Shown: positions 9,296 through 54,369 of the stretch, in pieces
Position numbering within the stretch: the first letter of the stretch is position 1
How the letters are laid out: every line of letters begins with the position of its first letter
Source of the DNA: an uncultured Oscillospiraceae bacterium
GTDB lineage: Bacteria; Bacillota; Clostridia; Oscillospirales; Acutalibacteraceae
Length of the DNA stretch: 54,369 nucleotides
NCBI GenBank assembly: GCA_948471095.1
Contig: CAOKRG010000011.1
Span: forward strand, 1 to 54,369
Reading direction: 5' to 3'
The notes under the pieces: model-generated
Database searches by the model: none
Seen by the model: only the letters and a program-made list of their open reading frames with translations
What the model was told of the DNA's origin: nothing
Translations under genes and position numbers: made by a program

Positions 9296-9513
9296 CGCAG
9301 TAAAAGTCTTTGAAGATTCTGCGACTTCATTTTAATGAAGTCGGGAACTTCTTCAGAAAGTTCCTTAACCCGCCGGAGGCCAGCGTGACGCTGGACCCAA
9401 TCCGCGGGGCGCTCCTTCCAGTCGCGGAAGGTGTGGGGGGAGTAAGCCTGGATAACGCGTAGGGGATAAACTACCGTAAGCTTGCCTCAACCCAAGGGGA
9501 GCCGCAAGCCCCT
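9296..9513 (+). repeat. Dispersed repeat inside the folate gene set (H-S-T-A order)
   Basis: Head box gtaaaagtctttgaagattc at about 9300 is followed by two hairpins: CGACTTCATT/AATGAAGTCG (about 9322-9342) and GGAACTT/AAAGTTCC. Then come the tail cccgccggaggc and a block from 9380 that matches module A of the 18017 and 18255 copies, with scattered substitutions. Tail-then-A is the same junction seen between the tandem copies. The remainder of the gap to 9688 has no recognisable gene. Confidence 0.85.
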
Positions 9514-9688
9514 CGTCACAAAAAGCCCCGTGTGCCGCGTAATGCCGCGCCGCCGTTTTTTGCCTACCTCCACCCCATACCAGCGCCTTTGCGCGAAGGG
9601 AAAAACGCTGGCCCGCCCCCGCCCGGCGAGCTTTTTTCCCTCCCGTGAAGACGTCCCCACAAAAACCACTTATCTTTCTGAGGCAACT

Positions 9689-10063
9689 ATGGAAAAAATC
9701 ATCATCAAAAACCTTGAAATCTTCGCCTACCACGGCGTAAACCCGGAAGAAAAGCAAAACGGCCAGCGCTTTCTGCTGGACCTGACCCTCTGGGCCGACC
9801 TGTCCCAGGCACGCCAAAGCGACCGCCTGGAGGACACCGTGAACTATGCCGCCGTGCGCAAGACCGTGCAGCGGGCCTTTACCAGTGAAAGCTTCGACCT
9901 CATTGAGCGGGCGGGCCATGTGGTGTGCCAGGCGGTGCTGGCGGAGCATCCCCAGGTCCGCCGGGTAGACCTGCTGCTGAAAAAGCCCGAGGCCCCCATG
10001 AACGCTGTGTTCGACTACGCGGCGGTGGAGCTCTCCGCGGAAAGGGGGAGCGCCCCATGCTAG
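9689..10063 (+). CDS. folB: Dihydroneopterin aldolase
   Basis: It converts 7,8-dihydroneopterin to 6-hydroxymethyl-dihydropterin. The 124-residue protein starts MEKIIIKNLEIFAYHGVNPEE, typical of FolB, and has DTVNYAAVRK and LIERAGHVVCQAVL, where Tyr, Glu and Lys positions match the family. ATG 9689 is preceded by TGAGG. An open frame runs further upstream, but that extension is repeat DNA. The end overlaps folK by 7 bases. Confidence 0.95.
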   Translation: MEKIIIKNLEIFAYHGVNPEEKQNGQRFLLDLTLWADLSQARQSDRLEDTVNYAAVRKTVQRAFTSESFDLIERAGHVVCQAVLAEHPQVRRVDLLLKKPEAPMNAVFDYAAVELSAERGSAPC

Positions 10064-10533
10064 CCGTGTTGGGCCTGGGCTCGAATTTGGGGGACCGGGA
10101 GGCAAACTTGGCCGGGGCCCTGGACCGGCTGGAACAGCTGCCGGGCACGAAAATCCTGGGCAATTCCAACGTGTATGAAACCGCGCCCTTCGATGTGCCC
10201 TCCCACCAGGAGGACTACTTAAACTGCTGCGTAAAGCTGGAAACCGGGCTGGACCCGGAAACCCTCTTGGACCGCTGCCTGGAGATCGAGGCCCAGCTGG
10301 GCCGGGTCCGGGTGGAACACCATGGAGCCCGGACTTTGGACGTTGACCTGCTGGTCTGCGAGGGCCATTTCAGCCAAACGCCCCGGCTGACCCTGCCCCA
10401 TCCGGGCATTTTGGAGCGGGCCTTCGTCATGGTCCCCCTTTCGGACCTGTTTCCCACCCACAGCGCTTTGGGGCTGGACTTTGCCGCCGCCTACGAGGCC
10501 GTGGACAAGTCCGGGGTGCGGCTTTATAAATAG
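10057..10533 (+). CDS. folK: 6-hydroxymethyl-7,8-dihydropterin pyrophosphokinase
   Basis: It activates the pterin with ATP for dihydropteroate synthase. The 158-residue length is standard. Motifs: VLGLGSNLGDRE at the N-terminus, NVYETAPFD, and HHGARTLDVDLLV with the Mg-binding Asp pair, followed by LPHPGILERAFVMVPL. ATG 10057 has AAGGGGGAG upstream and lies inside the folB end, so the two are coupled. The gene closes the folate set and ends before a strong two-way terminator. Confidence 0.96.
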   Translation: MLAVLGLGSNLGDREANLAGALDRLEQLPGTKILGNSNVYETAPFDVPSHQEDYLNCCVKLETGLDPETLLDRCLEIEAQLGRVRVEHHGARTLDVDLLVCEGHFSQTPRLTLPHPGILERAFVMVPLSDLFPTHSALGLDFAAAYEAVDKSGVRLYK

Positions 10534-10555
10534 GAACCCACGCCCAGGCGTGAAA

Positions 10556-10588
10556 AAGCGGAGGACGGCTTGGTCCTCCGCTTCTTTT
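10556..10588. terminator. Bidirectional terminator between folK and the GH25 gene
   Basis: The stem AAGCGGAGGAC/GTCCTCCGCTT (10556-10566/10573-10583) is followed by CTTTT on the plus strand. A run of five A at 10553-10557 gives T residues on the minus strand. It sits between two convergent genes and can serve both. Confidence 0.85.
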
Positions 10589-10594
10589 GGCGGT

Positions 10595-13763: not shown

Positions 13764-13810
13764 AAAGCAAGAAGCCCGGTTTGGCGCAAAAAGCCGCAAA
13801 ATTTTTAAAA

Positions 13811-13880
13811 AAGGCGGCTTAAGAAACTTCTTGAAAGAAGTTTCTTAAGAATCTTCAAGAACTTTTACACGCTTTACGGG
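13811..13880 (-). repeat. Dispersed repeat, inverted orientation
   Basis: Reads ggcggcttaag, then stem TTAAGAAACTTCTT/AAGAAGTTTCTTAA, then aatcttcaagaacttttacac. This is the reverse complement of the H-S-T part of the family. It sits 48 bases after the GNAT stop. Confidence 0.85.
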
Positions 13881-13904: not shown

Positions 13905-14190
13905 TGGTTCGCAGTTTGTTGGCAGACGCGCACCCTTTTTAAAGGCGGACGAAACTTTTCATGTTACGTTTTTGGGGTTTTCCGCTCTATCAAACCGCGC
14001 GGTTTTTTAGATATTTTAACTGCGCTGACGAAGGGAAATGGGTTGGGCAGCGGGCCAGCAAAAGTTTTGCGCTTCCTGCCCCAAACCGAGCGGAAAGCCT
14101 GCGCCTCACACTCACGATAAACGTTTAAAAGTTTCGTCAACCTTTTCAAAGGTTGCGGGGTTTTCAGGGGCAGAGCCCCTGAACCGCCGG
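13905..14190 (+). repeat. Dispersed repeat mosaic upstream of the marR-like gene
   Basis: The gap 13764-14305 has no gene. After a ggttcgcagtttgttggcagacg block, module B (ccccaaaccgagcgg) occurs near 14081, a head box acgtttaaaagtttcgtc near 14120, stem AACCTTT/AAAGGTT, then stem TTCAGGGG/CCCCTGAA with loop cagag, and the tail accgccggaggc. A short AAACC-GCGC-GGTTT with a T run near 13992-14008 could be a weak terminator. Confidence 0.75.
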
Positions 14191-14305
14191 AGGCCTGCGC
14201 AGCGAAGCGAGCACTACTAAAACTGACACGTCTATGCCCAACCGGGCAGTCCCACCAAAACACTGGCAAAAACAGCGGCGTTCCGCGCGAAAAGGAGGCT
14301 GGGAG

Positions 14306-17982: not shown

Positions 17983-18016
17983 CGTTGGGGGATTATCTAG
18001 CGAAGCCGCCCGCAAA

Positions 18017-18254
18017 CCAGCGTGACGCTGGACCCAATCCGCGGGGCGCTCCTTCCAGTCGCGGGAGGTGTGGGAGGAGCAAGCACGGATAACGCGCAGG
18101 GGACAGGCTACCGCAAGCCCGCCTCGGCCTGAGGGAGAACCGCAAGCCCCAAACCGAGCGCTAAGCCAACGCCTCCCACCCCCATAAAACGTGTAAAAGT
18201 CTTTGAAAATTCTTAAGAAACTTTCTCTCAGAAAGTTTCTTAAGCCGCCGGAGG
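18017..18254 (+). repeat. Dispersed repeat, full unit (tandem copy 1)
   Basis: Complete A-B-H-S-T unit of 238 bases: CCAGCG-tga-CGCTGG, a GC-rich block, ccccaaaccgagcgc at about 18148, aaacgtgtaaaagtctttg, stem CTTAAGAAACTTTCT/AGAAAGTTTCTTAAG and tail ccgccggagg. The next copy follows without any spacer. No gene is seen in 17983-18516. Confidence 0.95.
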
Positions 18255-18491
18255 CCAGCGTGACGCTGGACCCAATCCGCGGGGCGCTCCTTCCAGTCGC
18301 GGGAGGTGTGGGAGGAGCAAGCACGGATAACGCGCAGGGGACAGGCTACCGCAAGCCCGCCTCGGCCTGAGGGAGAACCGCAAGCCCCAAACCGAGCGCT
18401 AAGCCAACGCCTCCCACCCCCGTAAAACGTGTAAAAGTCTTTGAAAATTCTTAAGAAACTTTCTACAGAAAGTTTCTTAAGCCGCCGGAGG
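18255..18491 (+). repeat. Dispersed repeat, full unit (tandem copy 2)
   Basis: Nearly identical to 18017-18254. The differences I see are one A/G change just before the aaacgtg head box and a change in the hairpin loop (ctc versus a). Its tail ends about 25 bases before the rnr start. Such near-identity implies a recent duplication or ongoing homogenisation. Confidence 0.95.
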
Positions 18492-18516
18492 CGACCGAAG
18501 AAAGGATGAAGATTAT

Positions 18517-20718
18517 ATGAAGAGAAATTCGAGACCGCCCAGAAGGAACGCTGGGCCCAGGGAGTTTTCCGGGCCTTCCAGTGCGGAGAGCTACTCTCCC
18601 ACCAGCGCGGCCCTTAGCCTGGAGGAAAAATTCATTGTGGCCGCTTTAAAGCGCTGCGGCGGCGAGGGCGTGCCCTCCCGGTCCCTGCAGCGGGAGTCCG
18701 GCATACGGGACAAGGACGCCTTTTATGGGGCGCTCCACCACCTGGAGGAGGCCGGAGAGGTGCTGGTGGACAAGGACCACTGGGTCAAGCTGGCCCCGCC
18801 GGTAAAAGAGATCGAGGCCACCTTGGTGTCCATTTCCGAGCGCTTCGGCTTTGCCAAGCCCACCAAAATGGGAGAGGACATCTTCATCCCCGGCCGGGAC
18901 CTGAACGGGGCCTTCGTGGGGGACACGGTGATCCTCTGCGGCCTGCAAAAGCGGGACCGGGGCCCCAGCGGCCGGGTGAAGCGTATTGTGCAGCGGGGAG
19001 AAAATAAGATCACCGGCACGGTGCACATAGACGAGCACGGGGCCCGCGTCACCCCGGACGGGCCCATCCGCTACGATTTGGAGGTGCCCCAGTCCCTGCT
19101 GGGGGGTGCCAAGGACCGGGACAAGGCGCTCATCGAGCCCCGGCAGGACGGCCGCGGCGACTGGCGGCAGGCGGCGGTGAAGATGGTCTTTGGCTGCGGA
19201 GACCGGGCCCGGGTCTGCGCGGATGCCATCATTGAGCGCTGCGGCATCCCCACAGAGTTCCCGCCGGAGGTGCTGGCCCAGGCCGAGGAGATCAGCCGTA
19301 TGACCGTGACGGAGGCGGATATCCAGAGCCGCCTGGACCTGCGGGACGAGCCCATCTTCACCATTGACAGCGCGGACGCCAAGGACCTGGACGACGCGGT
19401 CTCCGCCCACAAAACCGTGGACGGCTACACCCTGGGGGTGCACATTGCGGACGTGTCCCACTATGTAAAGGCCGGGACCCCCATGGACCTGGAGGCCTTC
19501 CGGCGGGGCACCTCGGTCTATTTCGCGGACCGGGTGATCCCCATGCTGCCCGAGGCCCTGTCCAACGGGGTCTGCTCCTTGAACGCGGGCACGGAGAAGC
19601 TGACCTTCTCCGCCCTGATGGACTTTGACCAGCAGGGCAACATGACCGGCTACCGCTTTGAGAAGACGGTGATCGACTCCAAGGTGCGGGGCGTTTACAG
19701 CGAGGTCAACGCGATCCTCGCGGGCACGGCCGGCCAGGAACTTATGGACAAGTACGCCCCGGTGATGGAGAGCCTGCGCACGGCCAAGGAGCTGGCGGAC
19801 ATTCTGGCCGCCAACGGCAAGGGCCGGGGCCAGATGGACCTGACCAGCGACGAGATCAAGTTTGTGCTGGACGAGGACGGCGTCTGCGTGGACATTCTGC
19901 CCCGGACCCAGGGGGCCTCGGAGGAGATGATTGAGCAGCTGATGGTGGCGGCCAACTGCGCGGCGGCCAAGGCCTCGCTGGACGCGCGGATCCCCTTCCT
20001 CTACCGGGTGCACGAGCACCCCTCCCCGGACAGGGTGGTGGAGCTGTGCGGCCTGCTGGAGCGCCTGGGCGTGTCCTGCAAGGAGCTGACGAAGGGCAAT
20101 CCCCAGGCCAAGGACTTCGCCGCCGTGCTGGACCGGGTAAAGGGCACGGGAAAGGAATCGGTGGTGAACCAGCGCATTCTGCGCACCATGGACAAGGCCC
20201 GGTACGACCACCGGGAGCTGGGCCACTTCGGCCTAGCCTTGGCGGAGTACAGCCACTTTACCTCGCCCATCCGCCGGTATCCGGACACCTCCATCCACCG
20301 CATTCTCAGCGACCTGGTAAAGGGCGTGGACCCGGAGGCCATCGGCAGGCGCTACCGGACCTTTGCCGAGGAGTCGGCGGCGGAGTCCTCCAAAACGGAG
20401 GTGCGGGCCGTTACCGGCGAGCGGGACGCGGAGGACTGCTACACCGCCGAGTATATGCGGCAGCATCTGGGGGAGCACCATGTGGGGGTCATCAACGGGG
20501 TGACGCCCAAGGGGGTTTTCGTAAAGCTTTCGAACAACGCCGAGGGCTTTGTGAGCTTGCAGGATTTTGAGGACTGCGACTTTGAGTACGATGGGGAGAT
20601 CATGCACCGGGACCTGCGCAGCGGCCGGGTGCTGATGATGGGCCAGGAGCTGCCCATCATCGTGGCCGCGGCCGACGTAGCCACCGGCCGCATTGATTTC
20701 ATGCCAGTGGAGGGATAA
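18517..20718 (+). CDS. rnr: Ribonuclease R
   Basis: This processive 3'-5' exoribonuclease degrades structured RNA. The 733-residue protein has an N-terminal winged-helix-like part (about 35-95), cold-shock domains, the RNB catalytic domain with FTIDSADAKDLDDAVS (the Asp cluster, about residues 285-300) and VHIADVSHYV, HFTSPIRRYPD near 588, and a C-terminal S1 domain (GVINGVTPKGVFVKL). It lacks a long basic tail. The start has GAAAGGATGAA upstream, just beyond the tail of a dispersed repeat. In many Bacillota rnr sits with secG and smpB; neither is here. Confidence 0.96.
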   Translation: MKRNSRPPRRNAGPREFSGPSSAESYSPTSAALSLEEKFIVAALKRCGGEGVPSRSLQRESGIRDKDAFYGALHHLEEAGEVLVDKDHWVKLAPPVKEIEATLVSISERFGFAKPTKMGEDIFIPGRDLNGAFVGDTVILCGLQKRDRGPSGRVKRIVQRGENKITGTVHIDEHGARVTPDGPIRYDLEVPQSLLGGAKDRDKALIEPRQDGRGDWRQAAVKMVFGCGDRARVCADAIIERCGIPTEFPPEVLAQAEEISRMTVTEADIQSRLDLRDEPIFTIDSADAKDLDDAVSAHKTVDGYTLGVHIADVSHYVKAGTPMDLEAFRRGTSVYFADRVIPMLPEALSNGVCSLNAGTEKLTFSALMDFDQQGNMTGYRFEKTVIDSKVRGVYSEVNAILAGTAGQELMDKYAPVMESLRTAKELADILAANGKGRGQMDLTSDEIKFVLDEDGVCVDILPRTQGASEEMIEQLMVAANCAAAKASLDARIPFLYRVHEHPSPDRVVELCGLLERLGVSCKELTKGNPQAKDFAAVLDRVKGTGKESVVNQRILRTMDKARYDHRELGHFGLALAEYSHFTSPIRRYPDTSIHRILSDLVKGVDPEAIGRRYRTFAEESAAESSKTEVRAVTGERDAEDCYTAEYMRQHLGEHHVGVINGVTPKGVFVKLSNNAEGFVSLQDFEDCDFEYDGEIMHRDLRSGRVLMMGQELPIIVAAADVATGRIDFMPVEG

Positions 20719-20721: not shown

Positions 20722-21065
20722 CGTGGGGGCTTCGCCCCCACATCCCTACCACTTTTGAAAAAGTGGACAAAACTTTTATATTACTTCAGAGTCAAATGGT
20801 AGGAAAAATTACGCGGTCCAGGAGCTTACAACATTCGCTCCGTGAAGTTGGCACCTGGTAGGGTTCTTAGGGGGACTTGGCGAAGTCAATGTCATAAGCC
20901 CCTAAGCCGCCGGAGGCCAAACATTGCAAAAAGGGGCCGTTAGGGGTCTCGCCTGCCGACTCGGTCGGTTCGCAGCTTGGTCTGCTGTACTTGGCAAGCC
21001 AAGTACCCGGCAGACGCTCACCCCCTTCGGGACGACTTGGCGAAGCCAACGTCATAAGTCCCGAC
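20722..21065. repeat. Dispersed repeat mosaic after rnr
   Basis: The gap 20719-21185 begins with a hairpin GTGGGGGC-ttc-GCCCCCAC (20723-20741) lacking a T run. Then come an inverted head box with stem CCACTTTT/AAAAGTGG, an inverted P module (acgcggtccagg) filled with acaacattcgctccgtgaag, a tail box ccgccggaggc, and a tctcgcctgcc...cggcagacgctcaccc block. A palindrome GTACTTGGCAAGCCAAGTAC (20987-21006) interrupts that block, and TTGGCGAAGCCAA occurs near 21037. No promoter for bofA could be fixed with confidence. Confidence 0.8.
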
Positions 21066-21185: not shown

Positions 21186-21362
21186 ATGAAGAGCTTTCTG
21201 CTTTCCGCCGTGCTGGGGTTTTTGGCCCTGGCGCTGGTGAACCTGACCGCCCCCTACACCGGGGTGCTCATCCCCCTAAACCGGCTCAGCTTGGCGGCGT
21301 CCGGCGTGCTGGGTGTGCCGGGGGTCACGCTTCTTGTCATATTGAACACGATACTGCTCTGA
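21186..21362 (+). CDS. bofA: BofA-like sporulation membrane protein
   Basis: BofA is a small forespore-surrounding membrane protein that, with SpoIVFA, holds back cleavage of pro-sigma K in Bacillus. The predicted protein has only 58 residues: an N-terminal hydrophobic segment (SFLLSAVLGFLALALVNL), a turn with PLNRLSLAASG and the family's C-terminal hydrophobic motif GVLGVPGVTLLVIL. ATG 21186 is preceded by AAAGGA at a suitable distance. It lies 27 bases before nagA on the same strand. It is shorter than B. subtilis BofA (87 residues), mainly at the N-terminus. This is the clearest sign in the window that the organism forms spores. Confidence 0.8.
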   Translation: MKSFLLSAVLGFLALALVNLTAPYTGVLIPLNRLSLAASGVLGVPGVTLLVILNTILL

Positions 21363-21389
21363 GAAAACGCATAGAAGGGAAGTAAAAAT

Positions 21390-22550
21390 ATGTATCTGAT
21401 CAACGCCAAATATTTGGACAAGGACTTCCGCCTGGCCCAAGGGGACATTCAGGTGGAGGGGGGCAAAATCGTCCAGACCGGCCCCGCCCTGCCCCGCAAA
21501 GAGGAGGACATGGCCGTGGACTGCCAGGGCTATACCATTGTCCCCGGCTTTGTGGACGTGCACATTCACGGCTGCGACGGGGCGGATACCTGCGACGGCA
21601 CCCCCGAGGCCCTGCACGCCATGGCCCGCTTTTTGCTGTCCCACGGCGTGACCTCCTTCTGTCCCACCACCATGACCACGGGCCGGGAGGTCATCGAGAG
21701 GGCCCTGCTGGCGGCAAAGGGCTTTCACGACGCGCCCTTGGAGGGCGGGGCGAAGGTTGTGGGCGTGAACATGGAGGGGCCCTTCATCTCCAAGGAGCGC
21801 AAAGGCGCGCAAAAGGAGGAGGACATCGTCGCGCCCAATTTCCCCCTGTTCCGGGAGCTGTTCGACCTGAGCGGCGGTTTGGTGAAGCTGGTGGATATTG
21901 CCCCAGAGCAGCCCGGCGGCGAGGAGTTTGTGAAAAAGGCCAGGGAGCTGTGCACCGTGTCCATTGCCCACACCACCGCCAACTATGACCAGGCCAAGGA
22001 GGCCTTTGACTGGGGCGTGACCCACGCCACCCATCTGTTCAACGCCATGAACGGCCTGCACCACCGGGACCCCGGCGTGGTTGGCGCCGTGTTCGACGAC
22101 GGGCGGGTTCGGGCCGAGTTGATCTGCGATGGGCAGCACATCCACCCGGCGGTGCTGAGAACCGCCTTCCAGGCGCTGGGCGACCGGGCACTGATCGTCA
22201 GCGACTCCATGCGGGCCAACGGCATGCCCGAGGGCGCGGCCTTTGACCTGGGAGGGCAGATGGTCACCGTGTCCGGCGGCAAGGCGACTTTGGCGGACGG
22301 CACCATTGCCGGGTCTGTGAGCAACCTGCACCAGGAGGTCAAGAACCTGGTAAGCTGGGGCGTGCCCTTTGAGCAGGCGGCGAAGGCCGCCAGCCTGGTT
22401 CCCGCCAGGGCCATTGGGCTGGACGGGGAGATCGGCAGCATCGCCCCGGGCAAAGCCGCCGACCTGGTGGTGCTGGACGAAAACCTGGATATTGTATCCG
22501 TGTGGAAGTCCCAGGGCGGGGAGACCAAGATGCTGGCCTTTGAAAAATAA
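21390..22550 (+). CDS. nagA: N-acetylglucosamine-6-phosphate deacetylase
   Basis: It removes acetate from GlcNAc-6-phosphate, feeding amino sugars from wall recycling or the diet into glycolysis. The 386-residue amidohydrolase shows VDVHIHG near residue 56, NMEGPF near 127, HLFNAMNGLHHRDPGVVGA near 213 with the metal-binding His, and SDSM near 270 with the catalytic Asp. The start has AGAAGGGAAG upstream. nagB is not in the window. A strong terminator follows. Confidence 0.96.
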   Translation: MYLINAKYLDKDFRLAQGDIQVEGGKIVQTGPALPRKEEDMAVDCQGYTIVPGFVDVHIHGCDGADTCDGTPEALHAMARFLLSHGVTSFCPTTMTTGREVIERALLAAKGFHDAPLEGGAKVVGVNMEGPFISKERKGAQKEEDIVAPNFPLFRELFDLSGGLVKLVDIAPEQPGGEEFVKKARELCTVSIAHTTANYDQAKEAFDWGVTHATHLFNAMNGLHHRDPGVVGAVFDDGRVRAELICDGQHIHPAVLRTAFQALGDRALIVSDSMRANGMPEGAAFDLGGQMVTVSGGKATLADGTIAGSVSNLHQEVKNLVSWGVPFEQAAKAASLVPARAIGLDGEIGSIAPGKAADLVVLDENLDIVSVWKSQGGETKMLAFEK

Positions 22551-22572
22551 GCGCCGCGCAGGCGCGGGAAGG

Positions 22573-22610
22573 GAGCGGGGAGGATTTTTTCCTCCGCGCT
22601 CTTTGTTTTT
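22573..22610 (+). terminator. Terminator after nagA
   Basis: A stem GAGCG-GGAGGA pairing with TCCTCC-CGCTC (22573-22584/22590-22601) with one mismatch and a T loop is followed by TTTGTTTTT. It ends the bofA-nagA transcript. Confidence 0.88.
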
Positions 22611-22641
22611 GGAGCGGGGCCCAAGGAAAACGCAAAAAGAA

Positions 22642-22694: not shown

Positions 22695-22706
22695 GGAGCC
22701 AACAGG

Positions 22707-22736: not shown

Positions 22737-22805
22737 GGCAGGGCGGGGGCTTCCCCCCCTTGTATGCCCGGCCTGATTCTTTATGAAAGCAAGGGGGCTT
22801 TCTCC

Positions 22806-23981: not shown

Positions 23982-24145
23982 GCTTGGCGAAGCCAACGCC
24001 ATTAAGAGCCTGTATTCACAACCAGCGAACGGTTCCTGACAGTTAACAGTAAGCAAAATACGCGGTCCAGGTGCGTCGACGTTCGCTCCGCGAAGTCGCG
24101 GCACCTGGCGGATTCTTAAGGCAGAGCCTTAAGCCGCCGGAGGCC
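23982..24145. repeat. Dispersed repeat after ispDF
   Basis: Contains TTGGCGAAGCCAA directly after the ispDF stop, an inverted P module with filled hairpin (outer stem CCAGGTGC/GCACCTGG at 24067-24074/24101-24108), then stem CTTAAGG/CCTTAAG with loop cagag and tail ccgccggaggc. A TATACT at 24151-24156 just past the tail may be the -10 of the next gene. Confidence 0.8.
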
Positions 24146-28377: not shown

Positions 28378-28860
28378 CAACAGTAAAAGTTTTGTCCACT
28401 TTTTCAAAAGTGGCAGAGCGCGAGACGGCGTCTCGCGACCTTGCCCTTAAAAGGCGGCGCACTAAAAAAGCTAAGCCTGACAAGCTAAATCATCACCCAA
28501 AAGCTCAACTTAGCGCTGCCCAGCTGCGCCGCCGCCCTTAGAAAGCGCATTTAAGCGAAGCGCCAAACAGCGGGCTGTTCGATGCGGCTAACTTCCTTGC
28601 GTAACAGGCGGCTCATCCCACAAAAGGCAGCCGCAGGAAACCGGCCACTGTTATTCGCTTCGCTCTAAGGCGTTACCAAGGGCGGCGGCGCAGCATGGGG
28701 GCGCTATAGATGCCTGGGGTGGTGCTCAGGCGGTGTGCTCTATCGTTTTTTACTGCGCCGCCTTCAAAGGTCAAGGTCGCCGCCGGCGGCTTAGGGCTCT
28801 GCCCTAAGAACCCGCAAGGGGCCTAACGCCCCTTGACCGCGTATATTCCTACTACTAAAC
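28378..28860. repeat. Nested fold-back repeat between the transglutaminase and oxidoreductase genes
   Basis: The gap 28294-28891 is non-coding. Order: head box acagtaaaagttttgtcc with stem CCACTTTT/AAAAGTGG, then GAGACGGCGTCTC, then a long inverted repeat with arms at 28436-28461 (cgaccttgcccttaaaaggc) and 28753-28779. Inside it is a second one with perfect 16-bp arms, CTGCGCCGCCGCCCTT (28524-28539) and its complement (28678-28693). After it come an inverted tail box, stem CTTAGGG/CCCTAAG and an empty P hairpin CAAGGGGC/GCCCCTTG (28815-28835) leading into TTGACC (28833-28838). The outer arms match those at 35919-36035. Confidence 0.85.
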
Positions 28861-33306: not shown

Positions 33307-33700
33307 GTTCAAAAGAGGTAGGATGCCTCTTTTGAACTTAATTAGAGTTCTTGTGGAAATGTTTTTTTGAGTATTATAAGGCCTCCGGCGGCCAAGTTCA
33401 TCTTTGATGAACTTGCGGGACGTTGGGTCTCGCCTACCGGCTCGGTCGGCGACGGGAGAATCGCTCTACTTGGCTTTGCCAAGTAGCTGGCGATTGTCGC
33501 CCCCTGAGGACCCCACAACTTTTGAAAAGGGCGCTAATCGCCAGTGGCGATTGTCCAGCGCCGACCGAGATGGCAGTCGAGAATGACGAAACTTTTACTG
33601 TTGCACTCAGGGAGCTTTCTTCTTGTCAAAACGCGCGTTTTGGCCACTCCCCGTTGTAAGCCCCTGGACCGCGCAATATTTTCTACCATTAAGTTCCCAG
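33307..33700. repeat. Dispersed repeat mosaic between rplT and the RNA methyltransferase gene
   Basis: First a perfect 12-bp hairpin GTTCAAAAGAGG/CCTCTTTTGAAC (33307-33318/33326-33337). Then inverted tail gcctccggcgg, stem AAGTTCATC/GATGAACTT, a tctcgcctaccggctcggtcgg block interrupted by the palindrome CTACTTGGC-ttt-GCCAAGTAG, an inverted head box (gacgaaacttttactgttgc) and a P-type ccctggaccgcgc at about 33663. No gene is seen from 33168 to 33728. Confidence 0.75.
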
Positions 33701-38402: not shown

Positions 38403-38612
38403 GCTGGGCCATCTGCCCGAGGACGAGGCTAACGCCTTCAACCAACCCCACCCCGGGGCAAAAGTTTTTGAAGGGTGCAGGGAAACTTTTCTCAAAAATG
38501 TTCCCGCAAGCCAACGCCCCGCCGGAGCCATCTGCCCGTGGACGAGGCTAACGTCTTCCCCCAACCCACCCCGGAGTAAAAGTCTTTGAAGATTCTTAAG
38601 CCGCCGGAGGCA
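38403..38612 (+). repeat. Two tandem partial dispersed repeats between topA and trmFO
   Basis: Two units about 119 bases apart share ccatctgcccg, then gacgaggctaacg, cttc, ccaaccccaccccgg and a head box. The first (38409) keeps a weak hairpin gggaaactttt/aaaatgttcccg. The second (38527) goes straight from gtaaaagtctttgaagattc to taagccgccggaggc without the stem. It is the only copy seen that lacks any S hairpin. Confidence 0.8.
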
Positions 38613-38637: not shown

Positions 38638-39951
38638 ATGGAAACCATAACAGTAGTAGGCGCGGGCCTGGCCGGGTGCGAGGCGGCGTGGCAGATCGCG
38701 AAAGCGGGGATCGGGGTGGAGCTTTATGAGATGAAGCCCCAGAAGTTCTCCCCGGCCCACAAGAGCGCCGGGTTCGCGGAGCTCATCTGCTCCAACTCCC
38801 TGAAAGCCGCCCGGCTTGAGAGCGCGGCGGGGCTCTTAAAGGAGGAGATGCGGCAGTTTGGCTCCCTGCTGATGGACTGCGCGGACAAGTCCCAGGTCCC
38901 GGCGGGGGGCGCGCTGGCGGTGGACCGGGAGGAATTCTCCCGGCTGGCCACCGAGGCCATTGAGGCCTGTCCGCTGATTACTGTGCGGCGGGAGGAGCTG
39001 GAGCGCCTGCCCCAGGGCCCGGCCGTCATCGCCACGGGCCCCCTGACCGCCGAGGCTCTGTCTCAGGACATCCAGCGGCTGTGCGGGGGCGGGCTCAGCT
39101 TTTTTGACGCGGCCGCGCCCATTGTCAGCCGGGAGAGCCTGAACATGGAGCGCTGCTTCACCGCCGACCGCTATGGCCGGGGCGAGGGAGAGGGCGACTA
39201 CATCAACTGCCCCATGAACAAGGCGGAGTATGAGGCCTTCATCGAGGCCCTGCTGGGCGCGGAGCGGGCTCCCCGGCACGATGTGGACGTGCAGAATCCC
39301 AAGGTCTATGAGGGCTGCATGCCCATCGAGGTGCTGGCCTCCCGGGGCCGGGACGCCATCCGCTATGGCCCCATGAAGCCGGTGGGCCTGGTGGACCCCC
39401 GGACGGGCCACCGCCCCTGGGCGGTGGTGCAGCTGCGCACGGAGAACCGGGCGAACAGCCTCTACAACCTGGTGGGCTTTCAGACCAACTTGAAATTCGG
39501 GGAGCAGAAGCGGGTGTTCGGGATGATACCGGGCCTGGAAGACGCGGAGTTCGTCCGCTATGGGGTGATGCACCGGAACACTTTCCTCAATTCCCCCCAG
39601 CTTCTGGACGCGGACTACTCCCTGCGCCAGCGGCCCCAGCTGTTTTTCGCGGGGCAGATCACCGGCGTGGAGGGCTATATGGAGTCGGCCTCCTCGGGCA
39701 TTCTGGCAGGGCTCAACGCGGCCCGGCGGCTGCGGGGCCAGGAGACCCTGATTCTGCCCGAGACCACCATGATGGGGGCCCTGAGCCGGTACATCTCCGG
39801 CTACGCGGGCAAGGACTTCCAGCCCATGGGCGCCAACTTCGGCATTTTGCCGCCCCTCCCAGAACGCGTCCGGGACAAGCGCGAACGCTACCTTGCCCTG
39901 GCAGTGCGTGCCTCCGGCGGGTTAAGGAACTTTTTGGAAAAAGTTCCTTAA
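38638..39951 (+). CDS. trmFO: tRNA (uracil-5-)-methyltransferase TrmFO (folate and FAD dependent)
   Basis: It makes ribothymidine at tRNA position 54 using methylene-tetrahydrofolate. The 437-residue protein opens with the FAD motif ITVVGAGLAGCEAAWQIAKAG and has KSAGFAELICSNSLKA, the catalytic-region NCPMNKAEYEAF near residue 195, LVGFQTNLKFGEQKRVF and GQITGVEGYMESA. The last 13 residues (ASGGLRNFLEKVP) are encoded by an inverted dispersed repeat, so the natural C-terminus was probably replaced. Start ATG 38638 has AAGGAGG. It links to the folate genes at 7882-10533 through its cofactor. Confidence 0.95.
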   Translation: METITVVGAGLAGCEAAWQIAKAGIGVELYEMKPQKFSPAHKSAGFAELICSNSLKAARLESAAGLLKEEMRQFGSLLMDCADKSQVPAGGALAVDREEFSRLATEAIEACPLITVRREELERLPQGPAVIATGPLTAEALSQDIQRLCGGGLSFFDAAAPIVSRESLNMERCFTADRYGRGEGEGDYINCPMNKAEYEAFIEALLGAERAPRHDVDVQNPKVYEGCMPIEVLASRGRDAIRYGPMKPVGLVDPRTGHRPWAVVQLRTENRANSLYNLVGFQTNLKFGEQKRVFGMIPGLEDAEFVRYGVMHRNTFLNSPQLLDADYSLRQRPQLFFAGQITGVEGYMESASSGILAGLNAARRLRGQETLILPETTMMGALSRYISGYAGKDFQPMGANFGILPPLPERVRDKRERYLALAVRASGGLRNFLEKVP

Positions 39952-39985
39952 CGATCTTCAAAAACTTTTACGCCGTGACGGGGGG
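39911..39985 (-). repeat. Inverted dispersed repeat overlapping the trmFO 3' end
   Basis: cctccggcggg, stem GTTAAGGAACTTTTT/AAAAAGTTCCTTAAC, gatcttcaaaaacttttacgc. The first 40 or so bases lie within trmFO and provide its stop codon. Confidence 0.9.
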
Positions 39986-40126: not shown

Positions 40127-40207
40127 CAAACCCAAGCGTAACGTTTCAAAAGTTCTTGAAAGTCCTTAGAAAACTTCTTTCAAGAAGTTTTCTAAGCCGC
40201 CGGAGGC
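40127..40207 (+). repeat. Dispersed repeat before plsX
   Basis: cccaagcgtaacgtttcaaaagttcttgaaag head, stem CTTAGAAAACTT/AAGTTTTCTAAG with loop ctttcaag region, and tail ccgccggaggc. It is in the opposite orientation to the copy at 39911. The 140 bases between them are GC-rich without a gene. Confidence 0.88.
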
Positions 40208-40242: not shown

Positions 40243-41265
40243 ATGAAGATTATTGTGGATGGATTTGGCGGGGACAATGCGCCGGGGGAGATTCTTTTGG
40301 GGTGCGCCCAGGCCATGGAGGAGCTGGGCGTGGACATCGCCCTGGCCGGGGACAAGGACAAGCTGCTGGCCTGCGCCAAGGAGAAGGGGCTGGAAGCCGC
40401 CTTTGGCAAGATGGAGGTGCTCCACTGCCCGGACGTGCTGACCATGGAGGACGAGCCGGGAAGCGTGCTCAAGGAGAAGTCCGAGAGCTCCATGGCGGCA
40501 GGCCTGCGGGCGGTGGCCCAGGGCCAGGGGGACGCCTTTGCCAGCGCCGGGAACAGCGGGGCCCTGACCGTAGGCGCGACCATGATCGTCAAGCGCGTGA
40601 AGGGCGTCAAGCGGGTGGCCTTCGCGCCGGTGCTGCCCAGCACCCAGGGCTTTTTTATGATCTCCGACGCGGGGGCCAACGTGGAGTGCCGTCCGGAGAT
40701 GCTTTTGCAGTTCGGGCTGATGGGTTCCATCTATATGGAGCAGGTGATGGGGGTAAAGGCCCCCCGGGTCGGCCTGGTGAACGTGGGGACCGAGTCCCAC
40801 AAGGGCGACCCCCTGCGCCAGAGCGCCTATGCCCTTTTGAAGGACTGCCCCGGCCTGAACTTTGTGGGGAACGTCGAGCCCCGGGACATTCCCTATGGCC
40901 TGTGCGATGTGGCGGTGGCGGACGGCTTTACCGGCAACACGGTGCTCAAGCTCTACGAGGGCACGGCCCTGGCCATGATGGGCATGGTGAAGGATATTTT
41001 CAAGAAGTCGGCCAAAAATAAGCTGGCGGCGGCTATGATTTATGGAGACCTGCAAGGCCTTAAGAAAACCATGGATTACAACACCTATGGCGGCGCAGCC
41101 ATTTTAGGCGCGGCGAAGCCGGTTTTTAAGATGCACGGCAACGCCAAGGCCCCGGCAGTGAAAAACGCCCTGCGCCTGGTCCGGGACTGCACCCAGTCCC
41201 GCTATGTGGATAAAATGCGGGACGCCCTGGCTGGCGGCAGCGCGGGAGAGAATGGGCAAGGATAA
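40243..41265 (+). CDS. plsX: Phosphate acyltransferase PlsX
   Basis: PlsX turns acyl-ACP into acyl-phosphate for the PlsY step of phospholipid synthesis. The 340-residue protein has IIVDGFGGDNAPGEIL at the N-terminus (the family's D-x-x-GGD-x-AP), GNSGALTVGAT near residue 103, LGLVNVGTE-like RVGLVNVGTESHKGD and VADGFTGNTVLK near 226. The start has AAGGGGGATTATGGG upstream. Contrary to many Bacillota, no fab genes or acpP follow. Instead two repeats and rnc do. The last codons are echoed in a partial duplication at about 41385. Confidence 0.96.
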   Translation: MKIIVDGFGGDNAPGEILLGCAQAMEELGVDIALAGDKDKLLACAKEKGLEAAFGKMEVLHCPDVLTMEDEPGSVLKEKSESSMAAGLRAVAQGQGDAFASAGNSGALTVGATMIVKRVKGVKRVAFAPVLPSTQGFFMISDAGANVECRPEMLLQFGLMGSIYMEQVMGVKAPRVGLVNVGTESHKGDPLRQSAYALLKDCPGLNFVGNVEPRDIPYGLCDVAVADGFTGNTVLKLYEGTALAMMGMVKDIFKKSAKNKLAAAMIYGDLQGLKKTMDYNTYGGAAILGAAKPVFKMHGNAKAPAVKNALRLVRDCTQSRYVDKMRDALAGGSAGENGQG

Positions 41266-41380
41266 GGCGGCAGGAACAAGCCCCAAACCGAGCGCCCAGC
41301 AGCCTCTCCCCACCCGCAACAGACGTGTAAAAGTTTTTGAAGGTTCTTAGGGAACTTTTTTCAAAAAGTTCCCTAAGGGC
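41246..41380 (+). repeat. Dispersed repeat after plsX, unit 1
   Basis: From gggagagaatgggcaagg (the plsX end) through ggcggcaggaacaagccc, module B ccccaaaccgagcgc (about 41280), head agacgtgtaaaagtttttg, to stem CTTAGGGAACTTTTT/AAAAAGTTCCCTAAG. It has no full tail; the next unit starts at once. Confidence 0.85.
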
Positions 41381-41527
41381 GGGAGAGAAGAATGAGCAGA
41401 AATAAAGCGGCGGGAGCAAGCCATACAATGAGCACACTGTGCGCGTTCCAGGTCCAGCGTCACGACATAAAGTTTTTTGAAGATTGTTAAGGAGCTTTTT
41501 TCCAAAAAAGTTCCTTAACCCGGAGGC
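41381..41527 (+). repeat. Dispersed repeat before rnc, unit 2
   Basis: Repeats the layout of unit 1: gggagagaagaatgagcag, ggcgggagcaagcc, a diverged middle, head aaagttttttgaagattg, stem GTTAAGGAGCTTTTTT/AAAAAAGTTCCTTAAC (with one G-T pair) and tail cccggaggc. The GGAGG of its tail lies 7 bases before the rnc ATG. Confidence 0.88.
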
Positions 41528-41532
41528 AAACT

Positions 41533-48384: not shown

Positions 48385-48760
48385 GCCTCCGGCGGGCAGG
48401 GAAACTTTTTTAAGGAAAAAGTTTCCCTGCACCCTTCAAAAACCTTTGAGTCATGACGCTGGGGACGGGGAGTGGGCTGGGCGCTCGTTTTGAGGCAGGG
48501 GCTTTCGAAAACTTTTGGGCTGCGGCGCTGGGGATGGGGGCGTCCAGAGGAAAGAGTTGAACCAAAAGGCCTCAGAGAGCAAACAGTAAAAGTTTCGTCA
48601 ACCTTTACAAGAGGTTGACGAGTTATCCAAAAGATAACTCGTGGGTTCTTAGGGACGGAGTCCCTAAGCCGCCGGCGGCCAAACCATTTCTTCAAAAGGG
48701 ACGCAGTCCCGACCAAGCGGTCCCTGTTATATATTGGCAGGGTAATTATGAATACAAGCA
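48385..48760. repeat. Dispersed repeat mosaic after smc
   Basis: No gene in 48380-48820. Inverted copy first: gcctccggcggg, stem GCAGGGAAACTTTTT/AAAAAGTTTCCCTGC, cacccttcaaaaacctttg. Then a forward copy: aacagtaaaagtttcgtc head, stem CAACCT/AGGTTG, a palindrome ACGAGTTATC/GATAACTCGT, stem CTTAGGG/CCCTAAG with loop acggagt, and tail gccgccggcggcc at about 48667. Then an agcggtccctgttatatattggc stretch resembling a decayed P module. Confidence 0.82.
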
Positions 48761-52840: not shown

Positions 52841-52844
52841 GGCC

Positions 52845-53456
52845 ATGCGCACGGGGGTATATGGAGGCACGTTCAACCCCATCCACCTGGGGCATGTGCA
52901 TATATTAAAAGAATTCATCGCCCGCCTGGCTTTGGAACGGGTCCTGTTGATTCCGGCGGGCACGCCCCCCCACAAGCCGGCCCCCCATCTGGCGGCTGGG
53001 GCGGACCGGGCGGCCATGTGCCGGCTGGCGGCTGAGGCTCTGCCGGAGGCCCGGGTGGAGGTGAGCCTCATGGAGCTGGAGCGGCGGGGGAAGAGCTTCA
53101 CCTCCGACACTTTGGCCCAGCTACATGGGGAATACCCCCAGGACGAATTCTTCTTTTTGATGGGAGAGGACATGTTTTTGACTGTGGACCGCTGGCACGA
53201 GGCGGAGGCTATCTTCCGGCTGGCCAGCCTGTGCGCCTCCCCCCGCAGCCCGGACGGCATGGAAAAGCTGCTGGCCAAAAAGGCGGAGCTGGAGGCCCTG
53301 GGGGCCCGGTGCTTTGTGGAGGATATCCCCTTTTGGGACGTGTCCTCCACAAGGGTCCGGGAGCTGGCGGCGGCGGGAGAGGACGTGGCCCATCTTGTCC
53401 CCCCAAAAGTGGCGGAGTATATCGCGGCCCATGGCATTTACGCAAAAAGTGAGTGA
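52845..53456 (+). CDS. nadD: Nicotinate-nucleotide adenylyltransferase
   Basis: It joins nicotinate mononucleotide and ATP to deamido-NAD. The 203-residue protein has GGTFNPIHLGHVHIL (the HxGH nucleotidyltransferase motif) at residues 7-21, IPAGTPPHK near 36, GEDMFLTVDRWHE near 106 and the C-terminal ISSTRVRE-like DVSSTRVREL. It is tightly packed between yhbY and yqeK, the usual order in Bacillota. Confidence 0.96.
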   Translation: MRTGVYGGTFNPIHLGHVHILKEFIARLALERVLLIPAGTPPHKPAPHLAAGADRAAMCRLAAEALPEARVEVSLMELERRGKSFTSDTLAQLHGEYPQDEFFFLMGEDMFLTVDRWHEAEAIFRLASLCASPRSPDGMEKLLAKKAELEALGARCFVEDIPFWDVSSTRVRELAAAGEDVAHLVPPKVAEYIAAHGIYAKSE

Positions 53457-53521
53457 AAGACCGTTTTTCAAAAAGAATAGCGAGGACGGGGCAGCGCCCC
53501 GCCGCCGAAAAGGAGGCCCAC

Positions 53522-54106
53522 ATGACATACCAGGAATATGAACAGGAAGTGCGAAAGCACCTGACCGAAGAACGATTTTACCACAGCCAGTGCGTGGCCC
53601 AGTGCGCGGCCCAGCTGGCCGAAAAGTACGGCGCGGATGTGGAGAAGGCCCGGCTCTGCGGCATCCTCCACGACATTATGAAGAACACCCCGCCGGAAGA
53701 ACAGTTGAAAATCATCGAGAAATATGGTATCATGCTCACAGAGGCCGAGCGCCGGAACGTGAAGCTCTGGCACGGGGTGTCCGGGGCGGCCTATGTGGAG
53801 CATGTGCTGGGCGTGAAGGACCGGGAGGTCATCGACGCCATCGCCTGCCACACCGGGGGTAAATCCGGCATGACGCTGCTGGACAAGGTGCTTTTCGTGG
53901 CCGACTACATCTCCGCCGACCGGGACTACCCCGGGGTGGAGGAGCTGCGGGTTTTGGCGGAAACCAGCCTGGAAGAGGTAATCATCGGGGGCATCGCCTT
54001 CACCATCCCCGAGCGCATGGGCGCCCGCCTCACCCTGGAGCCCCGCTCCATCGAGGCCTACAACGAAGCCCTCTGGCTGCTGGAAGCCCAAAAACCGGCA
54101 ACTTAA
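53522..54106 (+). CDS. yqeK: YqeK-type HD-domain dinucleoside tetraphosphatase
   Basis: YqeK hydrolyses Ap4A symmetrically and binds metal through an HD domain. The 194-residue protein shows FYHSQCVAQCAAQLA with the first His (near residue 19), GILHDIMKN with the HD pair near 49, LWHGVSGAAYV with His near 81, and CHTGGKSGMTLLDKVLFVADYIS near 107 with the late His and Asp. ATG 53522 has AAAAGGAGG at 6 bases. Upstream in-frame codons overlapping nadD lack a site. rsfS, the usual next gene, is not seen before the window ends. Confidence 0.94.
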   Translation: MTYQEYEQEVRKHLTEERFYHSQCVAQCAAQLAEKYGADVEKARLCGILHDIMKNTPPEEQLKIIEKYGIMLTEAERRNVKLWHGVSGAAYVEHVLGVKDREVIDAIACHTGGKSGMTLLDKVLFVADYISADRDYPGVEELRVLAETSLEEVIIGGIAFTIPERMGARLTLEPRSIEAYNEALWLLEAQKPAT

Positions 54107-54165
54107 GGAACTTTCTTATAAGAAAGTTCCTTAAGAATCTTCAAAGAATTTTACACGTTTTTGAG
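54104..54165 (-). repeat. Inverted dispersed repeat after yqeK
   Basis: The stem CTTAAGGAACTTTCTT/AAGAAAGTTCCTTAAG begins at the yqeK stop codon and is followed by aatcttcaaagaattttacacg, the reverse of the head box. The usual tail box (gcctccggcgg) is missing on the yqeK side. Confidence 0.88.
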
Positions 54166-54279
54166 GGGTGGAAGATAGGGGCCTTTGGGCTCGGAAGGGA
54201 GCTTTGGGTAAAACGGTAGAGGTTAGGCTTGCCGGGCTTTAGACCAGGAAACAAGCGCTGTGTAAAAGTTGGCCCCCAA

Positions 54280-54369
54280 CCTCGCGGGGCCCCAAACCGT
54301 TCCCCAGCCCACCCTACCCTCCTTGCATAACGTGTCAAAAGTTTTTGGGAGTTCTTAGAACCCTTTTTT
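54280..54369 (+). repeat. Dispersed repeat cut by the window end
   Basis: Module B-like gccccaaaccgttccccagc, then aacgtgtcaaaagtttttggg and the start of a stem, ttcttagaaccctttttt. The second arm and tail lie outside the window. The gap 54166-54279 holds no gene. Confidence 0.78.

Follow-up and report, generated by a model that had tools for sequence, protein, structure and literature searches.

Type A, a small dispersed repeat found in the window (the whole 54,369-nucleotide stretch of DNA that was analyzed) and elsewhere in its host genome, is probably a small mobile DNA element in which what is conserved is the folding of one strand into a three-stranded structure. We put the probability of this reading, made from sequence comparison, at roughly 0.55. 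Type A is non-coding, about 50-62 bp in size, and is made up of AAAAG followed by a head of 12 nt and a nearly perfect hairpin of 15 bp (consensus AAAAG-TTTTTGAAGATT-CTTAAGAAACTTTTT-TC-..). Head and stem sequences change together in mirror order, with the head reading parallel to the 3' arm, which is the geometry of a Hoogsteen third strand. Copies are dispersed and nested, the two arms of the stem covary with each other as well as with the head, gaps between genes hold the element in one genome and lack it in another, and there is no RNA-strand signature. That the head and hairpin really form a triplex is our inference.

It has long been debated whether DNA triplexes play any part in the living cell. 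If the element is indeed selected for the proposed fold, this would, as far as our searches show, be the first DNA triplex in nature for which three-way covariation has been recorded across an order, and the triplex element would belong to a hairpin system that nests within itself and occupies much of the intergenic DNA of some Oscillospirales. The many natural variants in which head and stem have changed together make the claim directly testable with matched and swapped oligonucleotides.

Hairpin modules in the window and its genome

The host genome of the window is 2.5 Mb in size and Acutalibacter-like, and small dispersed hairpin modules are abundant in it. The tail CCGCCGGAGGC occurs 315 times (158 and 157 by strand) compared with 8 times (4 and 4) for a reversed-pattern control, so the abundance of the module is not due to chance. 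Several core types (A, B, and C) have this tail in common, and modules are nested within one another's loops. Type B has the head AAAAGTTTYGTC and type C the head CGCGGTCMAGG, and many B and C copies carry the same tail as A. A sequence-only reading of the window had described one repeat with the head as a part of it; the "one repeat" is a set of interchangeable, nested hairpin modules, and the covariation of the head with the stem had been missed.

The nesting shows in the loop lengths. Among tail hairpins, 15 copies have a 5-nt loop, 6 have a loop of 24-26 nt, and 10 have one of 59-62 nt. A parse of the tail hairpin with fixed 9-nt arms left 145 of 232 tail-like matches unparsed, comprising tails that occur in genes by chance, hairpins with short stems, and nested copies. 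Type B loops measure 3 nt in 39 copies and 51-138 nt in 14, GTTAG makes up 20 of the 34 type C loops counted, and type A loops are variable (TC, AC, CC, GA, CTC, ATC, CCTTA, CCTCA). When modules upstream and downstream were typed, many were left as "other". Cyanobacterial SDRs, which are very small mobile repeats, and the double-hairpin elements of fungal mitochondria are likewise tiny hairpins that have inserted into one another and into further repeats. Their likeness to type A is one of description (nested tiny hairpins), and we know of no third-strand relation described for either. In common gut bacteria, loop-in-loop nesting of tiny hairpins preserves the order in which they were inserted.

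A covariance model of the core gave 27 matches in the window. Thirteen are type A sites, found on both the + and - strands as the sequence-only reading had it, and the remainder either match only the hairpin, on the opposite strand, or match B or C modules weakly. That reading had placed the same ordered parts at 15 or more sites; the full order of head, stem, and tail is found at 7 of the 13 A sites, one of which (38578) has lost its hairpin, while about 15 gaps do hold some part of the hairpin system. Its statement that nearly every gap is filled was too strong, as several gaps in 9296-54369 have no A, B, C, or tail match (e.g. 12.9-13.1, 31.7-31.9, and 43.7-43.8 kb). All four stems that it quoted (at 18220, 39921, 40165, and 41350) are present there.

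The intact type A copy at 18195..18255 (+ strand, 82.1 bits) comprises AAAAG (18195-18199), the putative third-strand head TCTTTGAAAATT (18200-18211), the 5' arm (18212-18226), the loop CTC (18227-18229), the 3' arm (18230-18244), and the tail (18245-18255). The copy at 18433..18492 (+, 85.6 bits) is the second copy of a 238-bp tandem duplication upstream of rnr. TTCTT variants are found at 40148..40207 (+, 78.4 bits; head TTCTTGAAAGTC, stem AGAAAACTTCTT/AAGAAGTTTTCT, with tail) and at 13807..13866 (-, 74.2 bits), where the tail is cut to CCGCC and a T-run follows. TTTTT variants lie at 39910..39969 (-, 85.3 bits), within which the trmFO reading frame ends (stop 39951), and at 41329..41387 (+, 73.0 bits), which has no tail. 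Directly upstream of rnc, the copy at 41469..41530 (+, 61.4 bits) has the truncated tail CCCGGAGGC. A copy with tail at 48385..48447 (-, 71.3 bits) combines a GCAGGGAAAC stem with the head TTTTTGAAGGGT and the loop CCTTA, the one at 54091..54152 (-, 63.2 bits) is tailless, and the one at 54337..54369 (+, by the covariance model) is cut by the end of the window, its head TTTTTGGGAG adjoining the 5' arm GAACCC. Three more + strand sites are altered: 9302..9380 (28.5 bits) has the nested hairpin GCGACTTCATTTTAATGAAGTCGG within its stem and retains a tail, 38460..38518 (35.7 bits) is decayed, and at 38578..38611 (38.9 bits) the head is fused directly to the tail.

Cores of types B and C were located at 7.7, 11.8, 14.0-14.1, 20.8, 24.1, 28.4-28.8, 33.4-33.7, 35.8-36.2, and 48.6 kb. 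The type B copy at 14127..14194 (+) has the head AAAAGTTTCGTC and the hairpin CAACCTTT/AAAGGTTG, followed by the GGGGCAGAGCCCC hairpin and the tail; at 28385..28413 (+) the head and first hairpin of type B, in the TTTT/CCACTTTT variant, are followed by a GCGCGAGAC..GTCTCGCG module in place of the tail; and the type B copy at 48588..48680 (+) carries an extra nested hairpin, ACGAGTTATCC..GGATAACTCGT, and the tail GCCGCCGGCGGC. Type C, all with tail, is found at 7737..7800 (-) with its GTTAG loop unoccupied, at 24061..24144 (+) with a 26-nt hairpin nested in the usual GTTAG loop, and at 20812..20917 (+) with nested hairpins in the loops of both the hairpin and the tail hairpin. A mosaic at 33381..33673 (-) joins a C head, a B head with a nested D module, and the tail.

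Stem pairing and strand preference

The covariance model that the sequence-only reading had proposed recovered copies, and the compensatory stem changes on which it had built its case are real: 12 of the 15 type A pairs have changes on both sides, and covariation among 33 rows picked for intact stems was 0.581, compared with 0.203 when shuffled and at most 0.224 when slid. When four strands (both strands of one copy and one each of two others) were folded as DNA, z ranged from -3.7 to -4.4, and for each strand 0 of 200 shuffles were as stable as the native sequence. Among the 84 A stems having 13-15 of 15 pairs, 69 are perfect. Such near-perfect arms, together with the rarity of intermediates, would suit a stem symmetry that arose as a by-product of replication template switching in palindromes and gene conversion between copies, with no structural selection. 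This origin is extremely unlikely, as template switching yields direct or inverted copies and not the mirror relation between head and stem.

The sequence-only reading had left it open whether the element acts as RNA or as a DNA cruciform. An RNA element kept for its transcribed hairpin, such as a terminator, attenuator, or mRNA stabilizer, could draw on the high stability of the hairpin in folding, on the T-run after the window copy at 13807-13866, and on type C modules, which lie mostly on the gene strand (16 vs 3 opposite) and at 3' ends (24 vs 8). Type A matches, however, fall 20 on the same strand as the gene and 17 on the opposite strand (by a loose pattern and rough gene calls), type B likewise has no preference (19/21), and full-tail copies have no T-run behind the hairpin. 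Mismatches in imperfect A stems are G·T in 14 cases, A·C in 11, and other in 17; with no clear excess of G·T over A·C and no gene-strand bias, an RNA role is disfavored for A, and we consider it very unlikely. Above the gathering cut-off, Rfam gave only tRNA in the window and no family for the repeats, in line with the earlier view that no named family matches, and a search of 18000-18520 at relaxed threshold gave a chance-level match. Gene-context counts are rough: with ORFs of at least 90 aa, 22 of 59 A sites fell inside ORFs, which reflects spurious reading frames called in GC-rich DNA, and with 200-aa ORFs 50 of 108 loose A matches, many of them chance matches, still did so.

Mirror relation between head and stem

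In the parallel register, columns 6-9 agree with columns 39-42 in 132 of 132 cells, and columns 7-10 with 40-43 in 99.2%. Heads matched the mirrored 5' arm with z 13.3 (0/5000 shuffles) over 96 distinct matches, collected by a finder that fixed only AA[AG][AG]G and a hairpin, so that some are chance hairpins. The same rule gave z 6.7 (0/5000) for 25 matches from other species and genera and z 5.7 (0/5000) for 39 matches from other families of the order, which were fetched after the rule had been noted; a hold-out on further contigs of G025 alone was weak (z 2.7, 11/2000). A CTTTT head with a TTTTC arm recurs in G000, G424, and G534, which are three families by their genome labels. The pyrimidine run of the head is mostly 5 nt long (4-6) and is followed by G and purines. 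A head of six Ts accompanies 5 of 6 arms with six Ts, but a head of four Ts accompanies only 2 of 5 arms with four, which is evidence against the mirror. An exact mirror match is missing in 30 of 141 elements, including both wrong head assignments and real exceptions such as L154 and L275. The purine half by itself gives a less distinct result, with z 3.1 for the mirror and z 3.7 for the direct relation in G000.

The head might instead pair antiparallel with the loop and 3' arm in an ordinary helix (e.g. TTCTTGA/TCAAGAA), with no triplex; the element would then be two hairpins in competition, or a strand-exchange switch, at the DNA or RNA level. This pairing is available in most variants and, in those of the TTCTT and TTTTT kinds with a TC loop, extends over seven complementary bases in a row; 89.2% of 231 cells are paired when the loop is included. 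In free register the antiparallel rule scored z 9.0 for the whole head (mirror 11.3) and z 11.2 for its first six bases (mirror 12.0), the raw score there being higher for the antiparallel rule. In fixed register it fails at every asymmetric run: among 24 elements with asymmetric pyrimidine runs the mirror rule held in 22 and the antiparallel rule in 0 (0/17 distinct), with few independent origins, since TCTTT, the variant that mainly separates the two rules, is a single subfamily of 19 elements from 4 genomes. The helix also meets a C·A clash at columns 7-42 in 13 of 33 rows, where the parallel rule holds in all 132 cells, and the loop sequence is not conserved. On balance we regard the antiparallel helix as unlikely. 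A scan of all perfect hairpins, with 28 bases upstream and matches of 8/9 or better, returned 22, 20, 14, and 3 of 299 for the mirror and other relations (shuffle values 3.8, 4.9, 5.3, and 3.4); it lets the register float, and since a free register rewards runs, the scan is a weak discriminator and register-fixed tests were used instead.

In the three-stranded fold that we favor, the 15-bp hairpin would form and the 12-nt head directly 5' of it would settle in the groove. Near the tip the head would run parallel to the purine-rich 3' arm in T•A:T and C•G:C triplets, then pass a G opposite C, and from there its purines would lie beside the purines of the 5' arm. The putative triplex is short and of mixed type, with about 5-6 pyrimidine and 3-4 purine triplets, and its C triplets would need protonation. 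Hairpin arms with a mirror-order tract able to form canonical triplets, which is the general intrastrand-triplex motif, can be recognized in type A, the purine half being weaker.

The closest known kinds of element are the intrastrand-triplex repeats (BoxC/PIT/TMECO) and REP-like elements, a shift from the cruciform or REP comparison toward the former; earlier work on intrastrand-triplex repeats was reportedly published by Hoyne and Maher. As Holder et al. 2015 (PMC4666352) describe them, BoxC/PIT/TMECO are short dispersed intergenic repeats in which one strand has three tracts foldable as a hairpin plus a third strand, with copy number differing strongly among near relatives and no strand bias. 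The consensus given there, CCCTCNCCCN3-6GGGNGAGGGN3GGGNGAGGG, has no counterpart in the type A consensus when compared by eye. The order at the tip of type A (5' Hoogsteen, pyrimidine, purine) corresponds to class IV of that paper's scheme, while the uninterrupted homopyrimidine third strand of at least 6 triplets of strict class IV is absent from type A. TMECO is described in the same source as a G/C-rich class II purine motif with a 3' third strand and near-identical copies in proteobacterial genomes, whereas type A has a putative 5' third strand, mixed pyrimidine then purine, is variable in sequence with three-way covariation, belongs to a nested mosaic, and is found in Oscillospirales. The reportedly extraordinary likeness of BoxC/PIT/TMECO copies (PMC4666352) leaves little covariation with which to show that the third strand matters. 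A search of the open-licence PMC literature returned no paper dealing with hairpin repeats of Acutalibacter or Oscillospirales, or with covariation in intrastrand triplexes.

Distribution and mobility

Copies beyond the window, on which the sequence-only reading staked its claim, are spread through the genome and the order: type A matches occur in 21 of 29 genomes of the genus and 48 of 295 of the order, and among 398 genomes drawn from the phylum in the window's genome only. The comparison of orthologous gaps that it had suggested also came out in its favor, since most gaps examined in sister species are without the insertions, including those of the topA-trmFO-plsX-rnc run. The mur-rnr gap measures 537 bp in the window and contains two A copies, and an A, B, C, or tail match was found there in 0 of 25 readable relatives. 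A target-site duplication, which together with the terminal inverted repeats of a resident transposon would mark a MITE or transposon derivative, was not resolved for type A. Type A is apparently a mobile dispersed DNA element, with only a candidate for its mobilizing enzyme.

The triplex would form in single-stranded DNA, on the lagging strand or in an excised intermediate, and the folded hairpin could serve as the recognition signal for a trans-acting enzyme or recombination process, which would copy the element into gene gaps and into the loops of other hairpins. Modules B, C, and D and the small hairpins may travel by the same or a similar route, producing the mosaic. That the family is selected for a three-stranded hairpin, with the triple helix itself as the signal read by the mobilizing machinery, is a tentative and somewhat doubtful suggestion. 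The system hints at mobility machinery acting on folded single-stranded DNA, for which an IS200/IS605-type Y1 transposase is a candidate and no more than that.

A REP/REPIN-type or IS200-derived element would be read by such a Y1 (HUH) tyrosine transposase as a hairpin on single-stranded DNA, with the head as a guide or tag and not a third strand. Type A resembles REP/REPIN elements and their RAYTs, as portrayed in PMC3116915 and PMC3733652, in being a short palindrome that carries an unpaired tag on its 5' side and is scattered through gaps, with compensatory stem changes like those reported for REPINs (PMC3116915) and a proposed mobilization as single-stranded DNA. It differs in having neither the GTAG nor the typical CGTC tag and no identified RAYT, and in that its flanking tag covaries with the stem, a mirror relation that this explanation does not account for. 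CGTC REPs are described as almost always having AT in the first two stem positions (PMC3733652); type B has CGTC/TGTC, but its stems start with CC or CA. We consider this origin distinctly unlikely.

The Y1 survey, made with one Pfam model over the 29 genus genomes, bears on both readings. Y1 presence was weakly related to the number of A matches (Spearman 0.41, p 0.027), which raised the REP/IS200 explanation slightly and lowered the three-stranded mobile element slightly, and with a threshold of 30 A matches that was set post hoc, a Y1 match was found in 5 of 6 genomes above and 4 of 23 below (p 0.0055). Y1 number also tracks genome size (Spearman 0.46), which confounds the relation, and a Y1 match is absent in G005 (99% complete, 15 A matches) and G025 (60% complete, 67 A matches). 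No RAYT gene flanked by the repeat was seen in the genomes surveyed. The R1 search found no A element in 10 Y1 loci, where one loose A pattern (L069) and one tail (L070) were present. The sole Y1 of G000, the one protein typed with NCBIfam, is a 94-aa piece that fits IS200 (109.5 bits, cut-off 55) and scores below the cut-off of the RAYT model (29.2 bits, cut-off 80).

Host genome and module anatomy

The window corresponds to contig 11 in a genome assembly of 2,518,603 bases in 83 contigs (86.6% complete). The host is an Acutalibacter-like bacterium, since the nearest named relatives of its PlsX protein are an Oscillospiraceae isolate (84%), Acutalibacter sp. 1XD8-33 (79%) and Acutalibacter sp. 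1XD8-36 (77%); its order we take to be Oscillospirales. Stems quoted from the intergenic hairpins of the window in a sequence-only reading were recovered where that reading had placed them. The tail CCGCCGGAGGC occurs 158 + 157 times in the genome, against 4 + 4 for the reversed control pattern. Few of 28 genomes from the same genus have it in number (G021, 111; G001, 109; G025, 97; G005, 54; G011, 46); in the remainder it is found at most 31 times, mostly near the genome's own control.

Across 710,749 sampled bases of the genome (the window and 34 further stretches), three head types have this tail in common. Type A consists of AAAAG, 12 nt and a 15-bp hairpin, type B of AAAAGTTTYGTC, an 8-bp hairpin and a G-rich hairpin, and type C of a CGCGGTCMAGG hairpin and a G-rich hairpin. 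Upstream and downstream pieces are swapped between the cores, in 39 combinations counted with many pieces unclassified. The hairpin loops are places of insertion: among pattern-fitting copies, the B loop measures 3 nt in 39 and 51-138 nt in 14, the C loop 5 nt in 20 and 25-128 nt in 14, and the loop of the G-rich hairpin 5 nt in 15, 24-26 nt in six and 59-62 nt in ten. Hairpins lie inside the larger inserts, and in some copies second-level hairpins lie within those.

About four tandem TTCGCTCCGCGAAGTTGAC-like units expand one C-type loop on contig 9 of the host genome (stretch L025, 10209) to 85 nt, and at a contig end in G025 (contig 20; L098, 10443-10549) at least four tandem 32-bp units each contain the tail. 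Two face-to-face B heads at 10436-10475 of stretch L076 form a single 19-bp perfect palindrome, AAAAGTTTCGCCGGCCTTT and its complement. Larger inverted structures around GGCGGCGCA..TGCGCCGCC, accompanied by TAGATG..GCTCTATCG, were read by eye at 28450-28780 and 35930-36030 of the window; they resemble one more dispersed module placed between elements.

Stem covariation and the order of the type A head

That the stems change in compensation, as the sequence-only reading had proposed, was borne out for type A. Thirty-three elements were aligned, of which 20 are the host's and 11 belong to G025, while G001 and a Neglectibacter contribute one each; their selection for intact stems accounts for part of their 100% pairing. 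Of the 15 pairs, 12 are changed on both sides and three are invariant, with a covariation of 0.581 compared to 0.203 for shuffled and at most 0.224 for slid alignments. Taken regardless of stem quality, 355 pattern hits in the scanned loci include 69 stems with all 15 pairs, 13 with 14 and two with 13; lower-scoring hits are mostly chance hits, nested copies or decayed copies.

The first bases of the type A head repeat the tip of the 5' arm in reverse order (TCTTT with TTTCT, TTCTT with TTCTT, CTTTT with TTTTC, and five or six T with an equal number), and after the pyrimidine run G stands opposite C. A strand running alongside the purine 3' arm in parallel, like the third strand of a pyrimidine-motif triplex, has this order. 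This mirror rule was set down before further data were scored. Hits came from a finder whose only fixed parts were AA[AG][AG]G and a hairpin, and chance hairpins are among them. For 75 hits (62 distinct) the mirror relation reached z 11.0 (0 of 2000 shuffles) and other relations at most 2.5; a small second batch of G025 contigs gave 2.7 (11 of 2000), and 96 distinct hits gave 13.3 (0 of 5000) compared to 4.5 for the direct relation. The corresponding values were 6.7 and 2.3 for 25 hits from other species and genera, and 5.7 and 1.6 for 39 from other families of the order. Scored as parallel column pairs, columns 6-9 against 39-42 pair in every one of 132 cells, 20 of them doubly changed, and columns 7-10 against 40-43 are 99.2% paired. 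Across 141 elements from 46 genomes the mirror is exact in 111, and T-run length matches between head and arm in five of six six-T arms and two of five four-T arms.

An ordinary antiparallel helix of the head with the loop and 3' arm, requiring no third strand, scores almost as high. With free register and the loop included it reaches z 9.0 against 11.3 for the mirror over the whole head, and 11.2 against 12.0 over the first six bases, where its raw score is the higher; most head variants are compatible with both. At fixed register, however, it fits none of the 24 elements with asymmetric runs, 22 of which follow the mirror, and it is 89.2% paired with the loop and 89.4% without, the former with a C·A break in 13 of 33 rows. 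The deciding variants are a TCTTT subfamily (19 elements, four genomes), which may have a single origin, and CTTTT in three families, for which a shift by one would likewise permit antiparallel pairing. In the purine half of the head the mirror exceeds the direct relation in other species and genera (z 5.0 and 2.8) and in other families (4.3 and 1.9), and the two are not distinguishable in the host genome (3.1 and 3.7). Exceptions to the mirror include L154 (TCTTT head) and L275 (TTCTT head), each with a TTTTT arm. Because of the free-register score, the few deciding variants, the host's purine half and these exceptions, the triplex is taken as the better, not a proven, reading of head and stem.

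Were the fold maintained at the RNA level, G·U would be expected on the RNA's own strand more readily than A·C. This signature is absent or weak: 21 distinct imperfect type A stems (11-14 pairs) contain 14 G·T, 11 A·C and 17 other mismatches, and earlier tallies in the host genome gave 25 G·T and 20 A·C. By rough gene calls, hits in tandem gene gaps lie 20 on the gene strand and 17 opposite for type A, and 19 and 21 for type B. If a third strand, the purine half of the head would need the purine motif, which, according to Holder et al. (PMC4666352), cannot form in RNA. As a G·T excess is moreover not clear and strand bias is lacking, a DNA-level fold is favored for type A; of the RNA or DNA cruciform proposed in the sequence-only reading, the RNA option is the less favored. 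Unlike A and B, C-type hairpins prefer the gene strand (16 and 3 opposite) and 3' gene ends (24 and 8) in the host-genome sample by rough gene calls, and may act in transcription.

Distribution among relatives and orthologous gaps

A covariance model of type A found copies well beyond the window, in 21 of 29 genus genomes. The host has at least 144 (150 candidates scored, some perhaps hairpin-only matches of the other strand), followed by G025 (67), G021 and G011 (56 each), G001 (47) and G027 (31). Matches came from 23 of 300 genomes in the family at E 0.001 and, under stricter filters, from 48 of 295 in the order at E 0.0001; in an even draw of 398 phylum genomes, with still fewer candidates scored, the host itself was the sole match. 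From these searches the type A family seems to be a trait of the order, expanded here and there within it.

Orthologous gaps differ in presence and absence, which we read as differences between species and not observed jumps. The topA-trmFO-plsX-rnc gaps of the window are filled with elements (236, 291 and 267 bp). In three relatives' loci (L031, L032, L033) they measure 6-7, 14-26 and 28-54 bp by tblastn ends and hold no elements, and in L030 they measure 146, 29 and 52 bp with no pattern matches. In L029 the outer gaps are 12 and 100 bp, and the 495-bp trmFO-plsX gap has one (+) type A element where the window has (-) and (+) copies, orthology of the copies not being implied. The topA-trmFO gap of a Neglectibacter locus (L037) holds B-like hairpins and a tail-like end. 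No target duplication was resolved. At 39910-39951 the trmFO frame ends inside a type A element, and the last 11 plsX codons (41230-41265) are not covered when most relatives are matched; both genes thus seem to have had their 3' ends rewritten by insertions.

Directly upstream of rnr, a 537-bp gap contains two type A copies within a 238-bp tandem duplication (18010-18464). Its 217-nt copies lie at a spacing of 238 and are 98% identical, with a type A element at or near the end of each, which points to a recent amplification. A, B, C and tail matches were absent from the mur-rnr gap in all 25 readable relatives of 28 (gaps of 41-360 bp), and that of G011 (L216) contains a D-like module, a further nested kind. 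Elsewhere in the window, a 942-aa open frame at 21276-24104 (-) had no Pfam or NCBIfam match and may be a spurious antisense frame.

Known repeat systems and candidate enzymes

Intrastrand-triplex repeats are a known kind in BoxC, PIT and TMECO (PMC4666352). Type A shares their principle, and its tip has the class IV order, but its sequence, tract order and host group are different, its third strand is of mixed type, and it also departs from them in variability and nesting. REPs and REPINs resemble type A in size and compensatory stem changes (PMC3116915), but are associated with RAYTs (REP-associated Y1 transposases), of which none was identified here in a Y1 search of the genus genomes and a typing of the host's Y1 protein.

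As the elements are small, gene-free, dispersed, lineage-specific and nested in the loops of like elements, type A and its kin would be non-autonomous DNA worked on by trans-acting factors, probably while folded as single strands. Y1 (IS200/IS605-type) transposases are the obvious candidates. The host's single Y1 is a 94-aa piece that fits the IS200 and not the RAYT model; G005 and G025 gave no Y1 match, and the covariance model found no type A element near ten fetched Y1 loci. Over the 29 genus genomes, with Y1 counted as matches, Y1 and type A numbers rise weakly together (Spearman 0.41, p 0.027), and Y1 number also rises with genome size (0.46). At a cut of 30 type A matches, chosen afterwards, Y1 occurs in five of six genomes above and four of 23 below (p 0.0055).
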